A DNA stretch of 27,582 bases from a virus. Shown here piece by piece: positions 15,140-26,185 of this stretch. Position numbers and translations under genes: made by a program. The notes under the pieces are model-generated. The model did not search any database and was not told where the DNA came from. It saw only the letters and a program-made list of their open reading frames with translations. The first letter of the stretch is position 1; the number at the start of each line of letters is the position of its first letter. Where the stretch lies: positions 1 through 27,582 of IMG/VR virus record IMGVR_UViG_3300042465_001777; one strand, written 5' to 3'.

Positions 15140-16549
15140 TTATGCAACCCGCACCAAGTTCCGGCGTAAGGGTTGACTCCACTTGCTGCTGGCTGAACTG
15201 CCGTACATCCCCGTGATCGCGTCACTTGCAAAGGTCAAAACAAAGGCATCGGCCTTGTCCGGACTCGGCAGACCCCTCTTTTTGATCTCATCCTTGCCCT
15301 CGATGGCAATTTTGCCATTTGATGTGAAGGTGTAGCGTACAGTCGCCAACTCACTGATCAGCACCTCATCCTTGGCCAGTTTGCAGTCCCGCGCCTCCAG
15401 CCACGCCTTGGCCTTGTACCAAAGCTCGGCCTTCAGGTTGCGGTATGTCCCGCCCATCGCTGGGCTTTCTGACACATTGATCCCCCGCGCCGGCAGACCC
15501 AATTCCCGCAGCCGATCCACCACCCCAGCCCCCAGACCAATGCTGTCCACCAGAATTTCCTTGGGCTGCTCACTCGGGGCCAGCACCTGATACTCGGCCA
15601 CCACCGCCCCCGTCAACTGCATCAGATCCAGATTCTTCCAAGTGCGGATGCTCTCCGTCACCACATTGCCTTGGCGCTTGCACAGCGCTGATCTGTCACT
15701 GCCGAACCGCGCCACATCCAGCCCCCAGACCATCGGCGCTGATTTGCTGGCCGCCACATCCCTGTGCAGCGCACTCTCCAACAAATCCATCGGGATCACA
15801 GTGTCATCGTCACCCTTGGGAAACTCCCCGATCACCCTGATCCGGTAGACATTGCTGTCCTCGCCGTAGCGCATGGCCATCTCGTTGATGTACTCCTGAG
15901 ACACCCGTGGCGAGTCGCTGCACGCCACCTGAAAGGTAGTCCACTCGCCGGCCAGCCTTGTGTGCGTGTCGTAGAAGAACCCGCTGCTCCGCACCGGATT
16001 GCCCAGCAGCAGGGTCACAGCGTTGTGACCAGACATCGATCCCGCCGCCGCCTCAAACACCTGCTCTGGCACGCCGGATGCCTCATCGGCCACCAGCATC
16101 ACATACTCAGAGTGAATGCCCTGCAAAGCCTCGGGCTGCTCGGCCCGTGATGTCCTTGCCGATATAAACATCTCTGTCGGCGCAGCGTTGAACTCAATCC
16201 TCTCCTGCTTGACAGTCAGCAGGGTCTGCAATGGCGCAGGCATCGCGTTGATCCAGCGCTTCAACTCCGCAAACATCGCGTCATAAAGCTGGCTGCTGGT
16301 CGGCGCAGTGACCACCACCTTGACAGGTGATCGGGTCATAAAGTACCAAAGCATCGCCCATGAACTGGCCGTGGACTTGCCCACCCCGTGGCCAGAGCGC
16401 ACGCTGATCTTTCGATCTCCTCGGGCAATCGCCCCCAAGAACTTCTCTTGCCACGGGTCTGGGTCAACACCCAGCACCTCCTTGACAAAGAGCACAGGGT
16501 CGTTGTGGTATCGGGCAACCCACTCGGCAAAGACATTGTTTTTGATCAT
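15140..16549 (-). CDS. terL: Terminase large subunit
   Basis: A 469-aa packaging motor. The ATPase domain has a Walker A-like RSGHGVGKST (residues 51-60), a TAP coupling segment at about 81-83 and Walker B 'VMLVADEAS' (150-158). The nuclease domain has 'VWGLDVARFGSDRSALC' (Asp278), 'ILVDSIGLGAGVVDRL' (Asp335) and 'DKADAFVLTFA' (Asp431/434), the RNase H-fold acidic residues for DNA cutting. Length is normal for the family. It would work with the small terminase encoded about 3 kb upstream and the portal downstream. Its start overlaps the upstream gene by 4 bp. Confidence 0.95.
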   Translation of the reverse strand: MIKNNVFAEWVARYHNDPVLFVKEVLGVDPDPWQEKFLGAIARGDRKISVRSGHGVGKSTASSWAMLWYFMTRSPVKVVVTAPTSSQLYDAMFAELKRWINAMPAPLQTLLTVKQERIEFNAAPTEMFISARTSRAEQPEALQGIHSEYVMLVADEASGVPEQVFEAAAGSMSGHNAVTLLLGNPVRSSGFFYDTHTRLAGEWTTFQVACSDSPRVSQEYINEMAMRYGEDSNVYRIRVIGEFPKGDDDTVIPMDLLESALHRDVAASKSAPMVWGLDVARFGSDRSALCKRQGNVVTESIRTWKNLDLMQLTGAVVAEYQVLAPSEQPKEILVDSIGLGAGVVDRLRELGLPARGINVSESPAMGGTYRNLKAELWYKAKAWLEARDCKLAKDEVLISELATVRYTFTSNGKIAIEGKDEIKKRGLPSPDKADAFVLTFASDAITGMYGSSASSKWSQPLRRNLVRVA

Positions 16550-17304
16550 GTTGACTCTTTAGGTGCTGTCTCTCCAGCAGTCACGCATTTGCCGCCTGCG
16601 TTTGGCGTACTTACCGGCCCATGAGGAAATCCGTAAAAAGCCTGTGGGTCGGCTGCAATCGGCGGTGTGCATGTGTGAATCATAGTTGGGTCAGCAGTGC
16701 GCTTGCCACATCTTGGGCAGGAGTTGCGCTCCTGCACTGGCAGGGGTGGCTGTGCTGCAATAGCAATTTGCCCAGTACCCTTACATGGTTTGCAAGTTGC
16801 TATTGGGGATTCTGGAATGCCCGTTTCTCGATCCCCAGTTCCACCACAGCTTCTGCACGGGCGTGTATTGTTAGGCTCTCGCTCTGGCTGCACTGACTGT
16901 GCCAAGGCCGCACGCAAGCTGTCACGCTCAGCGATTAGCTCTGCGATCTTTTTGCAATAGCCAGCTACCGACTGGTCTGGCTGCACTGGCAGGGGTGTTG
17001 AAATCAAACCAGCGGCCATGTTGTCGATCTGTGTCAGCACACCTATTAAGTCGTCAAGTACCTGCCATTGAGGTGCTGTTTTTTGGTAGTGTTGCTTCCA
17101 AATCGAGGTTGCAAGGCGAGCAGCGTAGCCGTAACAATCCACCGGCTCCTGCTCTGGCTGCACTGGCTGTGCCAAGGCTTCTTTGATGGCGGTGATGGCT
17201 TGTTCTTTACGGAAAACCATATTGCCACTGCCATCATCAACCATATCCAATTCATCCGCTTCCAACGCTTCAAGCGCCAGTGTCAGTGCTTCGTCTTTGG
17301 TCAT
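16546..17304 (-). CDS. Phage accessory protein with DnaJ-like and other zinc knuckles
   Basis: A 252-aa protein from the ATG at 17304 (ATGA overlap). The N-terminus 'MTKDEALTLALEALEADELD' through 'AITAIKEALAQPVQPEQEP' is widespread in phages of Burkholderiales and relatives. The linkers repeat 'ALAQPVQPEQEP', 'PLPVQPDQSV', 'ALAQSVQPEREP' and 'PLPVQERN'. Two CxxCxGxG motifs, 'CRSCGGTGDR' (about residue 155) and 'CKPCKGTGQI' (about 174), form one DnaJ-type zinc site. A third set, 'CPRCGKRTADPTMIHTC' (about 197-213), may form another. Function is unknown. An in-frame extension to 17409 falls inside the previous gene and is not favoured. Confidence 0.75.
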   Translation of the reverse strand: MTKDEALTLALEALEADELDMVDDGSGNMVFRKEQAITAIKEALAQPVQPEQEPVDCYGYAARLATSIWKQHYQKTAPQWQVLDDLIGVLTQIDNMAAGLISTPLPVQPDQSVAGYCKKIAELIAERDSLRAALAQSVQPEREPNNTRPCRSCGGTGDRETGIPESPIATCKPCKGTGQIAIAAQPPLPVQERNSCPRCGKRTADPTMIHTCTPPIAADPQAFYGFPHGPVSTPNAGGKCVTAGETAPKEST

Positions 17305-17567
17305 ATCAGCAGACTCCAAATCCAAAGCCCCGTAAAGAACACCGCCAAGCAGATCACCATCAGCACCACCAGCGCAGCGCCCACCATCACGCTGCCGATC
17401 ACTTGCCATGTTTCCGGCACTGGCTCAATGTCATCCGGCACTGCCGGATACGCCTTGACCTTGCGGGTGGTCATGTCCTCCAGCCCCGCATCGGTGAAGT
17501 GGCAGAGGTGGGAGCACTGCGGCTTGTGTGGGCAGAGAGTGCTGCCCGTGTCGCATACTGTTTTCAT
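17301..17567 (-). CDS. Small membrane protein with Cys/His-rich N-terminus
   Basis: An 88-aa protein. Residues 1-24 (MKTVCDTGSTLCPHKPQCSH and then LCHF) contain four Cys and three His in metal-site-like spacing. A Pro/acidic linker follows, then one long hydrophobic segment (about residues 60-85, GSVMVGAALVVLMVICLAVFFTGL is split across it). It would be a single-pass membrane protein with a possible zinc head. No family is recognised. ATGA overlaps are seen at both ends. Confidence 0.65.
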   Translation of the reverse strand: MKTVCDTGSTLCPHKPQCSHLCHFTDAGLEDMTTRKVKAYPAVPDDIEPVPETWQVIGSVMVGAALVVLMVICLAVFFTGLWIWSLLI

Positions 17568-19585: not shown

Positions 19586-20095
19586 TTAACCCTCGTCAAT
19601 CGCGTCTTTGTCAATCCCGTTTACGGGCGTGACACTTCTATGCCTTAATGCGTCCAGCGCCAAGCTGCCAAGGTCGATGTTCACCAGAGGTGCGGCCTTG
19701 TCGCTGTACTCGTCATTGAGCTTGCCGGCCAGCCACGCACGCCTGTCGCAGCGCAGCTTGGCAAGCTGCACCTCTTGGATCGTTGCAGTGTCTGCAATGT
19801 CGATGGTTTGCTCTGCTAAACTCTGAGCGCTTCGCGTGCGTGCGCGTGCGTAGGCCGCCATGCGCGTCTCGCCGCCTCTATCAACCCATCGATCAAAGGT
19901 AGCTGTACCAATCTGCAATACCTTGCACAGTGCGGAAGTCGTGCCGCCGTTTGCAATGTATTCGATGACGGCATCCTCACCCCCGAACTTGTGAACAGCT
20001 TTGTTGGCTACGCTGAGTTCAGCCTTTTTGCCTTGTGCTGCCGCAATGTTGGCAGCGCTCTGGTCTGCAATCTCGGCCAATGTGTCACGACTCAT
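19586..20095 (-). CDS. terS: Terminase small subunit, Sf6-like
   Basis: A 169-aa protein. An N-terminal HTH is visible at about residues 52-75 (GGTTSALCKVLQIGTATFDR with 'WVDRGG'). It is followed by 'AYARARTRSAQSLAEQTIDI', 'ADTATIQEVQLAKLRCDRRA' and 'WLAGKLNDEYSDK', the characteristic oligomerisation helices of the Sf6-type small terminase. It would recognise the packaging site and deliver DNA to the large subunit, which is encoded about 3 kb downstream beyond an accessory block. It overlaps the VRR-NUC gene by 11 bp. Confidence 0.85.
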   Translation of the reverse strand: MSRDTLAEIADQSAANIAAAQGKKAELSVANKAVHKFGGEDAVIEYIANGGTTSALCKVLQIGTATFDRWVDRGGETRMAAYARARTRSAQSLAEQTIDIADTATIQEVQLAKLRCDRRAWLAGKLNDEYSDKAAPLVNIDLGSLALDALRHRSVTPVNGIDKDAIDEG

Positions 20096-20447
20096 CCAAG
20101 TACTCCTCGATTATTTTGAAACCCTCATCGGCTGATCTGGCGATAACGCACAGATAGCCTTCACTGTTTAATTGCTTTGCAATGCAAGACTGCTCTTTGC
20201 TGACAACCCCTATTTTGGTCTTCATCTCCACAAACAACCCGCCAAACCCCTTGGATCGCCGCAGGACGCACAGGTCAGGCATCCCAGCCAGTACACCCTC
20301 AGCGTGCAGCCTAACGCGCTCTGACGCCGATCTGTTGCCACCGTTTGGGATTGAGGCAATGAGCACATCCGGATAAAACGCCCTGACGCGCTGCACCAGC
20401 TTGACCTGTTCCTTGTGTTCTATGCTCTGTCTTAGTCTTGCCACCAT
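20085..20447 (-). CDS. VRR-NUC domain nuclease
   Basis: A 120-aa protein from the ATG at 20447. The VRR-NUC fold is shown by 'EHKEQVKLVQRVRAFYPDVL' and 'IASIPNGGNRSASERVRLHA' (IPNGG motif), 'EGVLAGMPDLCVL' (catalytic Asp in G-M-P-D), and 'GGLFVEMKTKIGVVSKEQ' (catalytic E-x-K). This is the standard small phage version of a PD-(D/E)XK enzyme, probably a structure-specific endonuclease in replication or packaging. A start at 20564 is also open, but its extra residues overlap the upstream gene heavily and look non-conserved. It is coupled to the small terminase. Confidence 0.88.
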   Translation of the reverse strand: MVARLRQSIEHKEQVKLVQRVRAFYPDVLIASIPNGGNRSASERVRLHAEGVLAGMPDLCVLRRSKGFGGLFVEMKTKIGVVSKEQSCIAKQLNSEGYLCVIARSADEGFKIIEEYLDES

Positions 20448-20797
20448 GAAGGTGATTCTACCGACCCTGCTGCTGTTTTTGCGCTTGAATGCAAGTTGCA
20501 GTGATGCTTCAAGTCCAGTGGCAGGGTTGGCCTTCCAAGGGTTTGGCACTGCCACTCTTGCCAAGACAGCTTTAACCAGCCACCGACCACTGCCTGCTCA
20601 TCGCCGGTCATGCCGACCTTCTGGCCTTTGGCTTTAAGTTCCTTGGCCTTTTTGAGGCTGACGAACTCGCTGCCCTGCACCTTGCTGGCGTGCGAGCATG
20701 TGCCGCAGGTGACTCTTTCATCGTCCATAAAGTGCTGAGTGCTGTCCATGATGCTATGCAAAGTGCAGGCAGTGCAAGGTGCAGGCTTTTTTTTCAA
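20432..20797 (-). CDS. Cys-rich (zinc-knuckle-like) protein of unknown function
   Basis: The open frame gives 121 aa from a TTG at 20797; ATG codons at 20749 and 20728 are alternatives, and I cannot decide. The conserved-looking part starts near 'MDDERVTCGTCSHASKVQGS', then 'KKAKELKAKGQKVGMTGDEQ', 'SWQEWQCQTLGRPTLPLDLK' and 'HHCNLH'. The CxxC-x2-H plus C and HHC-x2-H arrangement suggests a small zinc-binding domain. It overlaps the VRR-NUC start by 16 bp. No family name is assigned. Confidence 0.65.
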   Translation of the reverse strand: MKKKPAPCTACTLHSIMDSTQHFMDDERVTCGTCSHASKVQGSEFVSLKKAKELKAKGQKVGMTGDEQAVVGGWLKLSWQEWQCQTLGRPTLPLDLKHHCNLHSSAKTAAGSVESPSWWQD

Positions 20798-20974
20798 AGA
20801 CTTTCAAAGACCTGTAAAGTGTGTAGTGCATATCCCCTTATTTCCCTTATTTATTAATTAATATTCTTCTCTAAAGTAACCCTACCCTGCACTGCACTGC
20901 ACCACTTTTCAGAGGAGAAACGCAAAAAAGCAGACAGTGCAGGGTTGCTATCCAGTGCAACCTAACCCTGCACT
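20762..20974. repeat. CTGCACT/AGTGCAG repeats with AT-rich core (origin- or operator-like)
   Basis: The 177-bp gap after the primase gene, plus the edge of the next gene, has repeated GTGCA/TGCAC words. These are AGTGCAGG at 20762-20769, GTGCAAGGTGCAGG at 20772-20785, three tandem CTGCA units in CCCTGCACTGCACTGCACC (20885-20903), AGTGCAGGGTT (20936-20946) and AACCCTGCACT (20964-20974). A tandem TTTCAAAGAC x2 lies at 20792-20811 and an AT-rich stretch at about 20832-20876. Iterons flanking an AT-rich stretch beside a primase-helicase gene are typical of replication origins; promoter/operator function is the alternative. Confidence 0.55.
20924..20974 (-). terminator. Terminator-like hairpin after primase-helicase gene
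   Basis: Directly after the minus-strand stop at 20975, AGTGCAGGGTT (read on minus from 20974) pairs perfectly with AACCCTGCACT (ending at 20936). The stem is 11 bp with a 17-nt loop. A T6 run follows after six bases (plus A run 20924-20929). The spacing to the T run is longer than ideal, so strength is uncertain. The same bases take part in the TGCAC repeat set. Confidence 0.55.
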
Positions 20975-23119
20975 TCACAACCCAAAGTCGTTGACCGGCG
21001 GCGGTACGAGCCGCGAGGTCACCCCATTGCTTCGCCTAAATTTGACCCCCTGCACTGCCTTTAAGTGCAGGGCAATCCTCACAATGTCACCCTTTGTCGG
21101 AAAGGTTACACCTACCATCTCAGCCACCTCGGTCGATGTTTTGTAGCTCCACCTGGCCTTGTCAGCCGACCAATCGAGCTTGGTCTGAATCTTTTCAACG
21201 ATAGGGTCAACGGCTGTGAACTCTTTGTTGTGGGTGTTCAACTCACCCATCTGGTCACGGTCTAAGTACCAAGACTCGCCCGATTCGTAGATGGCCTTGA
21301 CCTCGGCCCAGAACTGCTGCATGTCAATCTGGTGGTCAAAGTCAATGGATTGACACTGAACAGTCCAGTAACGCCTGTTGCCGGTCTGGTCAGACAAGAA
21401 GCTCTCATCGTTGACGCTGGCAAAGAACACGGTCTGGCGCGGCTTGCTGGTGTTCTTTCTAGCGTAGGGCAGCCTGTATATATCCCTGTCGCTGGTCAGG
21501 AATGATTTAAGTGCGGCAATATCTGATTTTCTAAATGTCGCATCCAATTCACCTAATTCCACCATCCAGTGCGAGGTTGCCTGCCTGACTGAATCGGGAT
21601 TATCTGGGCGCAGAGTTAATCCGTCCTTGAGTAAATGCCCGTGGGCTAGGTTTTTAAACCAGCTTGTTTTACCGATACCTTGGTCACCGAGTAGAGTTAA
21701 TACGCCATGCGCTGATACGCCGTCTGGCCGGTAAAGGGCTGCAATAGCGCCGATAGCCCACTTGCGCATCATCATCTCTTTAATCTGGGTGTCGGGTGAT
21801 GTGATGGTTTGCATCCACTGACTTATTCGGCTCACCTTGTCCCAAGGCTTTGATTCAATCCAATCGACCGCTGGGTGAAAAGGGTGCTGTAGGCACTGCT
21901 GGGTCATGTACTCGGCCACCAGCGAGTGCGGCAGGCCGGACAGGATGGCTTGACTGACCATGTGGGTGACGGCAGCGTTGGCCTCATAGCCGTTGATGAC
22001 TTTGAGGTTTGGCACATGCACCACCTCCTCGCCTGACATGGTGTTGAACGAATACTGCACCTTGAGAAAATCAGACAGTGCGGCAAAGTTCTCAAGGGTA
22101 TTCAGGGGCTTGGGCTGCTTGCCTGCGGTCATGTGCGGCCAGACCAGGCCGACAGGCTCGTCATCAATCACCTCGACCTTGGTCACGGTCTTGGCCACCG
22201 ACAGGGGCGACCAGCCAAGAGATCGCGCCATCCAGATGAGCGAGCCAGCGCCGATCTGGGTGGGCTTGGCCTTGCGCCACTCACGCTCAGCAAAGGCTGC
22301 ATCGTGCTTGTGTGACTTGGCTGACCACGCCATAAAGATGCCGTGGCCGTCATCGCGCAGTGCGCCTTTGCTGGCGTACAAAACCTTCAGCCAATCCTCA
22401 AACGCGAGGTCAGGGTTTGGCATCTGAGCCAGCGCAGCCGTGGCCTGAATCGGGTCATTGGCCTCAAGCTGTCCAGGCTTGCGCTCTGCCAAGATGCTGG
22501 AGGTCATGGGCTTGCGGCCAATGAGCGTGCCGTGCAGCGAAAGCAAAGCCTCGCATCTCAGGATAATTTCACGGGCTTGAGCCTCGTCAAGGGTCATCAG
22601 GGCATCCCTGCCAACCAGCAAAGGCTCACCGCTGCCGTTCCATGAGTAGGGCTGGCCGGTGGTTGGGTGTACGGCATAGGCTACAAACTGCTGACCTGAT
22701 GCCAGAATCTCAACCTTTGAGCCTTTGATGACGCCATCGGCATCAGGCTTGTCGGTTTTCAGGGCGTAGGTGGCGGTGCTGACCTTGGCGAACTCTTCCT
22801 CGGTCCTGAACAGCAGTAGCTCGCGGGGTGCGTTGCCAATGCGCCGTGGTGGTGGCATCTCGTAGCAGCCAATGACATCGTAGGCAATGTCACGGATGGC
22901 GGCCACCAAGCCGGCGTGGCTGACATCGATGTCTATGCACGGGTTGTGCCGCGTCAAGATGCCGGTGTAGTTCTCGCTGTACTGGCTGGTGTGGGCCTCC
23001 CACCCGCCTTGCTGCCACTTGGCAGGGGCTGGCCGCTTCTCACCCCTGATGATGGGTACAGGCTCGTAGCCCTTGTCTGCGAGTAGCTGGGCGATGTCGC
23101 CAAAGGTTTGTTCAGTCAT
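20975..23119 (-). CDS. Primase-helicase: prim-pol N-terminus plus VapE-like helicase
   Basis: A 714-aa protein from the ATG at 23119 (MTEQTFGDIAQLLADKGYEP). Residues 1-200 look like a bifunctional primase-polymerase domain: 'GEKRPAPAKWQQGGWEAHTS', 'NPCIDIDVSHAGLVAAI' with a D-x-D metal site, and 'SKVEILASGQQFVAYAVHP'. The C-terminal half is a VapE/DUF927-type SF3-like ATPase with Walker A 'GDQGIGKTSW' near residue 478, 'SHWMVELGELDATFRKSDIA' as Walker B, and 'VFFASVNDESFLSDQTGNRR' plus 'YWTV' as sensor and arginine finger. It probably primes and unwinds DNA for phage replication. An in-frame extension to 23221 is Cys/Trp-rich noise inside the upstream gene. Confidence 0.9.
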   Translation of the reverse strand: MTEQTFGDIAQLLADKGYEPVPIIRGEKRPAPAKWQQGGWEAHTSQYSENYTGILTRHNPCIDIDVSHAGLVAAIRDIAYDVIGCYEMPPPRRIGNAPRELLLFRTEEEFAKVSTATYALKTDKPDADGVIKGSKVEILASGQQFVAYAVHPTTGQPYSWNGSGEPLLVGRDALMTLDEAQAREIILRCEALLSLHGTLIGRKPMTSSILAERKPGQLEANDPIQATAALAQMPNPDLAFEDWLKVLYASKGALRDDGHGIFMAWSAKSHKHDAAFAEREWRKAKPTQIGAGSLIWMARSLGWSPLSVAKTVTKVEVIDDEPVGLVWPHMTAGKQPKPLNTLENFAALSDFLKVQYSFNTMSGEEVVHVPNLKVINGYEANAAVTHMVSQAILSGLPHSLVAEYMTQQCLQHPFHPAVDWIESKPWDKVSRISQWMQTITSPDTQIKEMMMRKWAIGAIAALYRPDGVSAHGVLTLLGDQGIGKTSWFKNLAHGHLLKDGLTLRPDNPDSVRQATSHWMVELGELDATFRKSDIAALKSFLTSDRDIYRLPYARKNTSKPRQTVFFASVNDESFLSDQTGNRRYWTVQCQSIDFDHQIDMQQFWAEVKAIYESGESWYLDRDQMGELNTHNKEFTAVDPIVEKIQTKLDWSADKARWSYKTSTEVAEMVGVTFPTKGDIVRIALHLKAVQGVKFRRSNGVTSRLVPPPVNDFGL

Positions 23120-23497: not shown

Positions 23498-23683
23498 TTA
23501 CATATAAATCGCTGCCAAGCGATGTGCAGACTGTATCACATTGGGTAAAATACTCATGTTGTTGATCTCGCGGTTGACGACAAGTTGTTCTCCTTCTGGA
23601 GTGATCCAGTTACCCCTGATGGTTGACGCCGTCAGGGGTTTTTCTTTGGGGATGTTGATTCTAGTGCTTGGGCAGGTGGTCAC
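23498..23683 (-). CDS. Small ORF coupled to DNA methyltransferase, unknown function
   Basis: A 61-aa ORF with a GTG start at 23683 that overlaps the methyltransferase TGA as GTGA, the same coupling seen elsewhere in this phage. The sequence 'PLTASTIRGNWITPEGEQLV' and 'VNREINNMSILPNVIQSAHR' looks protein-like but matches no family I know. It ends just before the structured RNA. A plus-strand terminator-like hairpin (23613-23638) lies inside it. Without the start overlap I would rate it low. Confidence 0.5.
   Translation of the reverse strand: MTTCPSTRINIPKEKPLTASTIRGNWITPEGEQLVVNREINNMSILPNVIQSAHRLAAIYM
23613..23647 (+). terminator. Plus-strand rho-independent terminator-like hairpin
   Basis: On the plus strand CCCCTGATGG and CCGTCAGGGG form a 10-bp stem (one G-T pair) with a 6-nt loop, followed by TTTTTCTTT (23639-23647). 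This is a classical terminator layout, but it faces opposite to all genes here. It may stop antisense transcription from the left, or end an unrecognised plus-strand transcript. On the minus strand the hairpin is not followed by T. Confidence 0.6.
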
Positions 23684-24583
23684 TCAGCACTGAGGATTCT
23701 CCAAGCTGTTGCGGCACAGAGTGGCACTTGTCCATTGCCAATGGCTTTAAGTCTGTCCACCCTAGCGGCCACCCCATCAGCCACTCGACCCACATCGGGT
23801 TCAGTTTTCCACCAATGTCGGTCACTTGCTCCACGGCGTAATGCAAACTGTCCCAAGATCGATTCTTGCCGTCCTGTCGAATTACTGCTGCACTGCTGCC
23901 CTTGTACATGTTGGATGTTGGAGTCGGCCATGACTCTTTGGTTATGTAACCTATCGGCGGCCCCATTCCTGACCACTCCACCTGTTCTGACAGGCATCCT
24001 GCTCCCACCCCGTTCCTGCCTATCTTCGCCCTGTAATCCAAGCGCTTCTTCATTGATTCCGCTGACCTGGTTGGAATGTCTACTGTGCTTGGAGTTAGCC
24101 ACAATCCAGATTCGTTCTCGCTTGTGGTTTGCACCAATGTTGGCAGCAGATACAACTCCCCACCGACTGTCATACCCCATTGAGGAAAGGTCTGCAAGGA
24201 CTCGTCCAAGTCCTCTAGAAACGAGCATTGGACTGTTCTCCACGAATGCGTATCTCGGTCGAACTTCGCCAATAATCCGTGCCATTTCTCGCCACATTCC
24301 TGATCGCTCTCCATCGATCCCTGCCCCCCCCCCCCGCTGCGGAGATGTCTTGGCATGGAAACCCGCCAGATACGACATCAACAATGCCTCGCCACGGGAT
24401 TCCGTCAAAGGTTTGTACATCATCCCAAATCGGGAAAGGCGGGAGAAGGCCGTCATTTTGTCGGGCGCACAGTACGCTAGCTGGGTAGGGTTCCCACTCA
24501 ACGGCGCAGACTGTTCGCCATCCAAGGAGGTGTCCACCAAGTATTCCTCCACCAGCGCCTGCGAAAAGAGCCAGCTCATTCAT
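23680..24583 (-). CDS. DNA (cytosine-5) methyltransferase, frameshifted at G12 tract
   Basis: The gene starts at the ATG at 24583 (AAGGAG upstream, 8-bp overlap with DUF2800). Frame one carries motif I 'LALFAGAGGGILGGHLLGW' and the catalytic motif IV 'SGGFPCQDISAAG'. It then leaves frame at a run of 12 G (24324-24335). The other frame resumes with 'GAGIDGERSGMWREMARIIG', motif VI 'YAFVENSPML', motif VIII 'HKRERIWIVA' and the C-terminal motifs 'DVGRVADGVAARVDRLKAIG' and 'NGQVPLCAATAWRIL'. One G fewer would restore a 300-aa enzyme with normal spacing. It would methylate cytosine in phage DNA, probably against host restriction. Either a sequencing error or a real on/off tract. Confidence 0.88.
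24324..24335 (-). repeat. Poly-G tract (12 G on coding strand)
   Basis: Twelve consecutive C on the plus strand fall directly behind the catalytic Cys motif of the methyltransferase and separate its two reading frames. Runs this long are prone to slippage in replication and to sequencing miscalls. Confidence 0.95.
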
Positions 24584-25637
24584 GATTCTCCTTTTGGGCT
24601 TTTTCTTTGACCAAACTGGCAGCAGCATGCTTCTCGCCAATCAGGTCTTCGCTGATGGCAATGTCCAGCTTGGCAATGGCTGATGGACTTTTGAGATCGA
24701 ATGCATGCGGGTAGGACTTCAGAGCCTCGTAGGCCAAGGCGTCACTCTTCCAAAACTTAGTCTTGCGACCTGGTCGCAGTGTCCAGCCTTGGATGGTTGA
24801 CCCGCTGGTAATCTGTTTCTTTGCTGACTCCAGCACTGCATCCGACCACAGGGCTGCAAGCTGCGCCAGTTCAATCTCCTCGCCGGTGACATGAGGCACT
24901 GCAATGGTGTCATCCTTATCGGCCTGCTTGACAAGATCTGCAAACTCTTTGCGTGCGTTGTCCTGCACCTTCTGGCGCATGGATGGGCAGATGGGCTTGG
25001 CCTTGCAATACTTGCAATTGCTGGTCGATGGGTTGGTCGGTGCGTCATCGGTCAGCGCGAGGTTGGCAGCGGCCAGCAGGTCGTGGCCGTGCTTTTTTAG
25101 CTCTGCCCCTGTGGTCTTGTGTACGGATACGCCAGTGCCAGGCTGGAATATCACCAGATCAACATTGATTGACTCTGGAGCGTTGAGCTTGAGCATTGCG
25201 CCAAGCGCGTATGTTTTAAGCTGCATGTTGTCCTCGGCACTGACTGCAACCCTGCCGGTTTTTAAATCTAGACATGCCAGTGTGTCGCCTTCGACAAGGA
25301 TGGCATCGGCAGTGCCGCCAAGCGCGTAGTGGATAGACTTCAGTCCTTCATCCACATTGACCTCAATCAGCTTCTTGCGTGGGTTGGCAAAGTAGCCGTT
25401 CACAAAGTCGGCATACTCACGCGCCATAGTGATGTATTCGGGGTCAATGTCTGGGTTGTCAATCTCTTCACCCCGCAGCATTTTCTCTGACAGTTCATGG
25501 ATAGCCGTACCCTTGGCGGCAGCAGGCCCAGCCGGTTCATACGGCATGAGGCTTTCCAGCCTGTAGCTACCTGGACAGGACATGACCCGATCCATGCGTG
25601 AGGCTGAGAGACGGGCGTGCTTACGATTTTGGTGCAT
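24576..25637 (-). CDS. DUF2800 nuclease, Cas4/RecB-like PD-(D/E)XK
   Basis: A 353-aa protein. Nuclease residues are His47 ('GTAIHELSEKML'), Asp111 ('ALGGTADAILVEG'), Asp124 and Lys126 ('LACLDLKTGR') and Gln139/Tyr143 ('NMQLKTYALGAM'). Cys21 ('MSCPGSYR') and Cys208, Cys211 and Cys217 ('NCKYCKAKPICP') would hold a 4Fe-4S cluster, as in Cas4 and AddB. DUF2800 is typically encoded beside DUF2815, SNF2 helicase, VRR-NUC and a VapE or polymerase in phages, as here, and probably acts in recombination or replication. AAGGAG precedes the ATG. The HNH gene overlaps its first 17 bp. Confidence 0.92.
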   Translation of the reverse strand: MHQNRKHARLSASRMDRVMSCPGSYRLESLMPYEPAGPAAAKGTAIHELSEKMLRGEEIDNPDIDPEYITMAREYADFVNGYFANPRKKLIEVNVDEGLKSIHYALGGTADAILVEGDTLACLDLKTGRVAVSAEDNMQLKTYALGAMLKLNAPESINVDLVIFQPGTGVSVHKTTGAELKKHGHDLLAAANLALTDDAPTNPSTSNCKYCKAKPICPSMRQKVQDNARKEFADLVKQADKDDTIAVPHVTGEEIELAQLAALWSDAVLESAKKQITSGSTIQGWTLRPGRKTKFWKSDALAYEALKSYPHAFDLKSPSAIAKLDIAISEDLIGEKHAAASLVKEKAQKENHE

Positions 25638-26163
25638 GGTTGCTTTCTCCTTTTATTAATTTGACTGAGTGACCCCGAACTTTATGGCCCTTGATGATTG
25701 CTGACGCGACACTCGCGCCATGAACACCCAAGTGACGGGCAGCGGAGTTCTGGCTTGGAAACAAGACGCCATCGACATCAACCTGATTTGTCCACCTATG
25801 AGTTTTTCTTTGCAGAGATTGGTAGCTGTGGCGGTGGTTGTCTGAGCATGAAAGCCATTCAAGGTTTTCAACCCTGTTGTCGTTGCGCTGTCCATTCTTG
25901 TGATTGACCTGCAATGCTTTATCGCCATCAATGAAAGCGGCAGCAACAAGACGATGCACCAGCTTGCAATTTCCGCGACCCAAGACCACACCAACATATC
26001 CATTGGGATATGTGTGCGACTTCATTGGTCTACCCTTAAATCGTCTTTCGTTGTATGACCCGTAGCGATTGCGTAAAAGCCGCACACGATCAATACTTCG
26101 GACATTGCCAAGGCTGCTGACCTCGTATCCTGGCACATCATCAATTGCCTTCCAAGTTTCCAT
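25621..26163 (-). CDS. Free-standing HNH homing endonuclease (NUMOD4-HNH)
   Basis: A 180-aa protein from the ATG at 26163, with AGGAGGG 5 nt upstream. Residues 1-26 (METWKAIDDVPGYEVSSLGN, then VRSIDR) are a NUMOD4 DNA-binding motif. The HNH core runs 'CKLVHRLVAAAFIDG' to 'ALQVNHKNGQRNDNRVENLE', with His70, His88, Asn90 and Asn97 as expected catalytic and metal residues. The C-terminus ('VLFPSQNSAARHLGVHGASV' and on) looks like a NUMOD1/IENR-type HTH. It would cut a homing site in related genomes. It is wedged between helicase and DUF2800, overlapping the latter, with its own promoter-like -10. Confidence 0.92.
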   Translation of the reverse strand: METWKAIDDVPGYEVSSLGNVRSIDRVRLLRNRYGSYNERRFKGRPMKSHTYPNGYVGVVLGRGNCKLVHRLVAAAFIDGDKALQVNHKNGQRNDNRVENLEWLSCSDNHRHSYQSLQRKTHRWTNQVDVDGVLFPSQNSAARHLGVHGASVASAIIKGHKVRGHSVKLIKGESNHAPKS

Positions 26164-26185
26164 AATCACCCTCCTGTAAGTTTAT

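Follow-up and report, generated by a model that had tools for sequence, protein, structure and literature searches.

Directly 3' of the Prim-Pol/VapE gene of this virus is an array of a short iteron (CCCTGCACT), in two sets of opposite orientation that enclose an A+T-rich spacer about 100 bp long. Comparison of sequences makes it probable that array and spacer together serve a tailed phage as its replication origin, with an iteron layout of the SaPI/PICI type. The initial annotation had proposed a candidate origin in this place, and the proposal gained support from the concerted drift of the repeat word (12 genomes), from an array that follows the VapE gene into Acinetobacter phage Alexa and from a nearby switch in GC skew.

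Gene setting

The DNA analysed is the virus record IMGVR_UViG_3300042465_001777 (27,582 bases, positions 1 to 27,582), hereafter called the window. It is tailed-phage DNA, as it carries genes for the large (15140-16549) and small terminase (TerS, 19586-20095), portal, scaffold and major head proteins. The genes identified in the window lie on the minus strand. Behind the VapE stop codon follow the repeat gap, a small Cys-rich ORF (20432-20797, minus strand), a VRR-NUC nuclease gene and the small terminase gene. Neither Pfam nor PHROG gave a match for the Cys-rich ORF, and the window gave no hit with Rfam or in a search for tRNA genes. In the window clade the ATG that matches the start of this ORF is separated from it by eight consecutive A and lies in another frame (20750-20830, minus strand); in loci L005-L015 the ORF begins at ATG, and for the window clade a different start site or slippage is possible. 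Two further observations concern the rest of the window: the reading of a C5-methyltransferase (23661-24640, minus strand) is apparently divided between two frames at a run of C near 24324, seemingly by a frameshift, slippage or a sequencing error, and a NUMOD4/HNH endonuclease gene (25621-26169), likely a homing gene, is placed between an SNF2-type helicase and a DUF2800 exonuclease.

The repeat array and its A+T-rich spacer

The pentamer TGCAC occurs 13 times within 400 bp (20676-21069), a density reached by none of 500 dinucleotide-preserving shuffles (maximum 11), and is depleted over the whole window (75 sites found, 121 expected from shuffles). Measured over 300 bp, TGCAC among 5-mers and AGTGCA among 6-mers are the most clustered words of the window. 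The cluster was thus confirmed, although it is wider than the 20762-20974 first given for it, and a search for the same repeats elsewhere found no scatter of these words, the second-best TGCAC cluster having just five sites per 400 bp. The (A)GTGCA(GG) copies named at the outset are present as AGTGCAGG at six positions (20762, 20886, 20936, 20967, 21049, 21064). With one mismatch allowed, AGTGCAGG is found 40 times across the window as compared to 36.7 expected, so that the signal consists in local clustering and not in window-wide enrichment.

Followed along the gene, the array starts with an inverted pair inside the VapE coding end (21051-21055, plus strand; 21065-21069, minus strand), which corresponds to the pair already reported there (CTGCACTGCCTTTAAGTGCAG at 21050-21070). 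Three scattered copies lie just 3' of the stop codon (20937-20941 and 20955-20959 on the minus strand, 20969-20973 on the plus strand) and are followed by iteron set A, three tandem TGCAC at 20888, 20893 and 20898 (20888-20902, plus strand), which reads GTGCAGTGCAGTGCAGG on the minus strand. Next come the spacer (20784-20887), our proposed melting site, with a single copy inside it (20826-20830, minus strand), and iteron set B (20763-20783, minus strand; TGCAC at 20763-20767, 20772-20776 and 20779-20783), which is inverted with respect to set A. The array core begins at the VapE stop codon (20975), as it does in relatives, and repeats extend into coding sequence on both sides. Membership of an outlying TGCAC in the Cys-rich ORF (20676-20680, plus strand) is doubtful, as it is absent at this place in L002. 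Four more copies of CTGCACT, all in one orientation, were noted at 16732-17164 within the ORF 16546-17409 and are probably a coding repeat.

No other 100 bp of the window are as rich in A+T as the stretch described beside the gene (20780-20879, A+T fraction 0.70), which the TGCAC cluster encloses. In all six contigs examined, a 100-bp stretch inside the cluster ranks first or second in A+T content, and each contig, as far as these partial contigs extend, has one dominant repeat cluster. The tandem pair was likewise found, as TTTCAAAGAC twice at 20792-20811. It is confined to the closest relatives of the window (the second copy matches at 9 of 10 positions in L002) and absent from L005-L015, and is therefore probably no part of the function.

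Conservation and drift of the repeat word

A scan with the VapE protein yielded 21 loci, and a second scan with alignment listed 80. Downstream of the VapE stop, the copies keep their order and orientation in L002-L004 (90% identity), in ten loci of 63-65% identity (L005-L012, L014, L015) and in L024-L026, with one to three array copies missing in some of them. The copies just 3' of the stop codon (corresponding to 20937-20973) are similar in L002 and fewer in L005-L015. No TGCAC array was found after the gene in L016 and L018-L022, and none in L091, a locus of 34% identity in one Brevundimonas genome. L095, whose helicase half is 69% identical, likewise lacks TGCAC there and has a weak GTCCTAC array, matched by 5 of 200 shuffles.

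In L005-L015 the Cys-rich ORF contains iteron set B in its 5' coding end. The translation of the set varies in the 63-65% group (DALYALDAL, VALVAL, VAPVAPVAP), which points to a constraint on the DNA rather than on the protein. The iteron has the form CCCTGCACT in the window clade, GGTTGCACC in L015 and most commonly GGTTGCACT (119 sites, 12 genomes). Bases flanking the repeats are more alike within genomes than between them (0.55 vs 0.45, seven genomes compared), which none of 1000 label shuffles reproduced; TGCAC is followed by C at nine of ten sites in L015 and by T in most others.

The drift of the word bears on the reading of the locus as a stem-loop origin of the kind proposed for pRN1 and Bordetella phage BIP-1, according to which a large stem-loop is the functional element and the repeats are merely its arms. 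Like the window protein, pRN1 ORF904 and the BIP-1 protein combine Prim-Pol, SF3 helicase and C-terminal winged helix, and their origins too are located 3' of the gene (PMC4234260, in the part available). The same part of that paper proposes stem-loops for proteins with this domain set, BIP-1 included, and there no origin-like iterons were found. The inverted sets can indeed pair, with z-scores of -2.1 in the window, -3.9 in L002, -3.3 in L007, -4.3 in L010, -3.1 in L014 and -2.4 in L015, and a strong hairpin (z -9.0) follows the primase gene of phage BPP-1. However, in three of nine loci z lies above -1.3 (L005, -1.2; L006, -0.9; L095, -0.7) although the repeats remain, and the spacings of the two arms are unequal (5/5 vs 7/9 in the window, 10 vs 8/9 in L007), so the stem would be bulged. 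Copies outside any possible hairpin, for example in L015, change their letters along with those inside, and the BPP-1 hairpin itself consists of inverted TTTGCCTCG copies. Conserved iterons and a hairpin that is not conserved thus set the window family apart from pRN1 and BIP-1, and we consider a stem-loop origin unlikely. The very stable BPP-1 hairpin (L119:1105-1250) is possibly the BIP-1 stem-loop of PMC4234260; the order nuclease-TerS-TerL in BPP-1 is that of the window.

GC skew

The skew was computed on related contigs that are all partial, the window itself being a 27.6 kb fragment. With arms of 3 kb the strongest switch from negative to positive skew lies at -261 bp from the iterons in L002, -473 bp in L026, -979 bp in L014 and +187 bp in the window, that is, within 1 kb of the repeats in four of the five testable contigs. 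The expectation of a skew switch at the array was therefore borne out in these four and not in L006, where the switch is 33.7 kb away with 3 kb arms and at -1954 bp with 5 kb arms. The longer arms gave offsets of +1739 (L002), -473 (L026), +41 (L014) and +2147 bp (window). In every contig used, one strand carries most of the long ORFs. As a separate observation, the L006 contig (39,996 bases) has the Cys-rich ORF, the nuclease and the small terminase twice, in diverged copies close to its two ends (L108:655-1776 and L109:16979-18097), which may represent tandem elements or a chimera.

The VapE protein as putative reader of the repeats

The proposed initiator gene (20975-23119, minus strand, stop codon 20975-20977) encodes Prim-Pol, PriCT_2 and a VapE-like SF3 helicase, for which Pfam gave values of 6.7e-5, 1.1e-10 and 7.6e-56, respectively. 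PDB entry 7pds ('Similar to D. nodosus vapE') matches profile positions 390-658 with an E-value of 1.9e-33. For the C-terminal end (20978-21230, minus strand) AlphaFold2 predicts a winged helix, our proposed repeat reader, with a mean pLDDT of 75.5 over the last 110 residues (72-91 in blocks from residue 31 on) and the order H-E-H-H-E-E; the full-length model, with a mean pLDDT of 35, was set aside. The best PDB comparison (9ivf_A, Z 5.3, rmsd 2.7 over 72 residues) is tied with Fur-type domains, and since Foldseek against the PDB returned no E-value below 0.02 and VIA-align no Z above 5.3, the domain was not assigned to a family. We could derive no recognition code relating winged-helix residues to repeat words.

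Acinetobacter phage Alexa has 11 copies of AGTGCA in the 400 bp 3' of its VapE-type primase gene, and its extended word TAGGTTGCACTAGGT is that of the L005-L007 group. A comparison of all 211 window ORFs (at least 60 aa from stop to stop) with the Alexa genome detected VapE as the only shared protein (39% identity over 395 aa), leaving aside a shadow ORF antisense to this gene and a match of the winged-helix part to a second Alexa protein. The primase domain of the Alexa protein is TOPRIM and not Prim-Pol. The word therefore goes with the part comprising VapE and winged helix and not with the primase, the terminase or any other detectable gene, and from this comparison the C-terminal domain of VapE is the likeliest reader of the repeats. 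The second protein, Alexa_048 (L148:33143-33601; 152 aa, no Pfam match), resembles the VapE winged helix in its C-terminal part (31% over 65 aa) and is possibly a stand-alone competitor for the iterons.

The comparison with Alexa also speaks against two further explanations. A phage transcription regulator might control VapE or the packaging unit from an operator array, as many regulators bind repeats and the array is located between the replication gene and the nuclease and terminase genes; the initial annotation had named a regulator site as the alternative to an origin. Yet no sigma-70-like promoter was found in 20500-21200 (this promoter type being the only one searched for), the repeats enter coding sequence on both sides, and Alexa shares with the window no regulator, only VapE. 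We therefore regard an operator as quite improbable, and less likely than an origin. Packaging sites are often near terS, and TerS is indeed encoded nearby (19586-20095), but a cos or pac site read by it is highly improbable, because the same word is present in Alexa, where no homologue of the window TerS was detected, and the array stays with the VapE gene where, as in Alexa, the following genes differ.

If the array is an origin, the VapE protein would bind the iterons through its C-terminal winged helix, helicase subunits would assemble on both iteron sets and melt the A+T-rich spacer, and the primase part would then prime the exposed strands and so set up the forks. The window contains no exact DnaA box (TTWTNCACA) and one site with a single mismatch, in the gap (20790), so opening probably needs the phage protein only. 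This differs from DnaA-dependent iteron plasmid origins, in which DnaA boxes stand beside the iterons.

Comparison with known replication systems

The layout is of a known kind. As described in the accessible parts of PMC6092414 and PMC7581432, the origins of SaPIs and PICIs (SaPIbov1, EcCICFT073) are located directly 3' of the initiator gene, have two iteron sets flanking an A+T-rich region, and are served by an initiator made up of a helicase and a C-terminal DNA-binding domain, sometimes fused to a primase. The window matches the first two features, and its initiator likewise joins a VapE helicase domain to a predicted C-terminal winged helix. In SaPI Rep and SCCmec Cch2 the C-terminal domain reads iterons directly 3' of their own genes (PMC7581432, accessible part). 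One paper terms the layout unique to PICIs. Unlike these satellites, the carrier of the predicted origin in the window is a tailed phage that itself encodes terminase, portal, scaffold and major head proteins. New are the occurrence in ordinary tailed phages and the lineage-specific words within a constant layout.

The primase-helicase alpha of P4, which acts with ori/crr, also binds repeats through a winged helix (as cited in the available part of PMC4234260). Its primase is TOPRIM, as compared to Prim-Pol in the window, and Alexa combines TOPRIM and VapE with the window's word. The repeat sites of P4 are two separate ones, ori and crr. Streptococcus phage Sfi21 has in PER a short non-coding stretch of origin character, extra copies of which confer resistance (PMC6356513, part of the text). 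Among open-access papers, a search for prim-pol/PrimPol with iterons and phage retrieved only the SCCmec paper, and no paper among the matches listed combined 'iterons' with 'VapE'. The non-coding origin of Sfi21 is, we assume, situated 3' of a primase gene.

To our knowledge, the origin has been located in only a minority of phages. Should VapE-type phages have theirs beside the gene, marked by a readable word, many of these origins could be read off the sequence. Satellites of the PICI kind and ordinary phages would then share one replication scheme, and the stem-loop proposal for Prim-Pol/SF3/winged-helix proteins would give way to a testable iteron model.

Other lineages with other words

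The same layout recurs with other words in related phages, some of them laboratory-grown, and the words found by VapE lineage include TGCAC, GGGGTCA, AGGTGTCA, CAGGGTAC and GGTGAC, among others. GGGGTCA starts at +10 after the VapE stop in L132 and its kin (+43 in L139), AGGTGTCA at +3 in L134, L137 and L138, and CAGGGTAC at +86 in L145. L031, in which an AAA_25 ATPase replaces VapE, has TGCACAAA. In Bas97 (host Escherichia coli) 13 copies of GGTGAC within 400 bp occupy a non-coding gap that follows the primase gene at a distance of 1.76 kb; for similar arrays in Persinger and Mica this distance is 2.1-2.8 kb, and PPpW-3 has 17 CGCAGCC at +1353. No clear array was found near the gene in Mano, FoX1, VP16C, phiWae15 and MW202473.

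We surveyed 93 loci, a set free of near-duplicates, loci cut short and L017, of which 89 were usable and 46 remained after dereplication. A 6-mer cluster of seven or more in 400 bp was present in 24 of the 46. In 14 of these 24 the strong cluster is at -150 to +600 of the stop, limits that were set after looking at earlier array results, as compared to 2.5 expected by area (none of 200,000 simulations as high). Across all 46 loci 15 clusters fall in this range (5.1 expected), and 32 of the 46 have no strong array there. A first survey, which included the broken frame of L017, gave 6-mer counts of at least seven at 11 of 44 prim-pol stops and at 1 of 185 stops of other genes.

A search starting from the word itself found AGTGCAACCTAGTGCAWC in 19 stretches of viral contigs, 10 of which lie 74-107 bp behind a VapE gene; one locus found in this manner, L166 (45% VapE identity), has the same layout as the window. 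Seven stretches share a common context without VapE in an unrelated phage group, and two look incidental. GTGCAGTGCAGTGCAGGG gave four stretches, three in the window clade and one without VapE. The seven loci without VapE (L151, L152, L154, L156, L157, L158, L162) carry AGTGCAACCT repeats, up to four in tandem; L157, which was checked by protein family, encodes a DnaB-type primase/helicase and has its repeats between divergent transcription units. The AGTGCAACCT repeats are perhaps another origin or an operator. The presence of AGTGCAACCTAGTGCA repeats in a group of phages that encode a DnaB-type primase/helicase and lack VapE would fit a host protein as reader of the word, but we give this very little probability, as the words are wholly different from one VapE lineage to the next and also drift inside a single gene family, and the group without VapE may be convergent.

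Returning to VapE as the reader, we see about an even chance for a broader proposal, namely that VapE helicase, winged helix and adjacent iterons are one inherited origin module of tailed phages, in which the primase can be exchanged (Prim-Pol or TOPRIM) and word and reader diverge together. If so, the layout would be a general type of phage origin and no peculiarity of PICIs, and a code of origin recognition could be derived from sequence. A differently placed array was noted in Vibrio phage 1.009.O (L129:780-1240), where GGGGCACAA repeats are located upstream and not downstream of the Prim-Pol gene.
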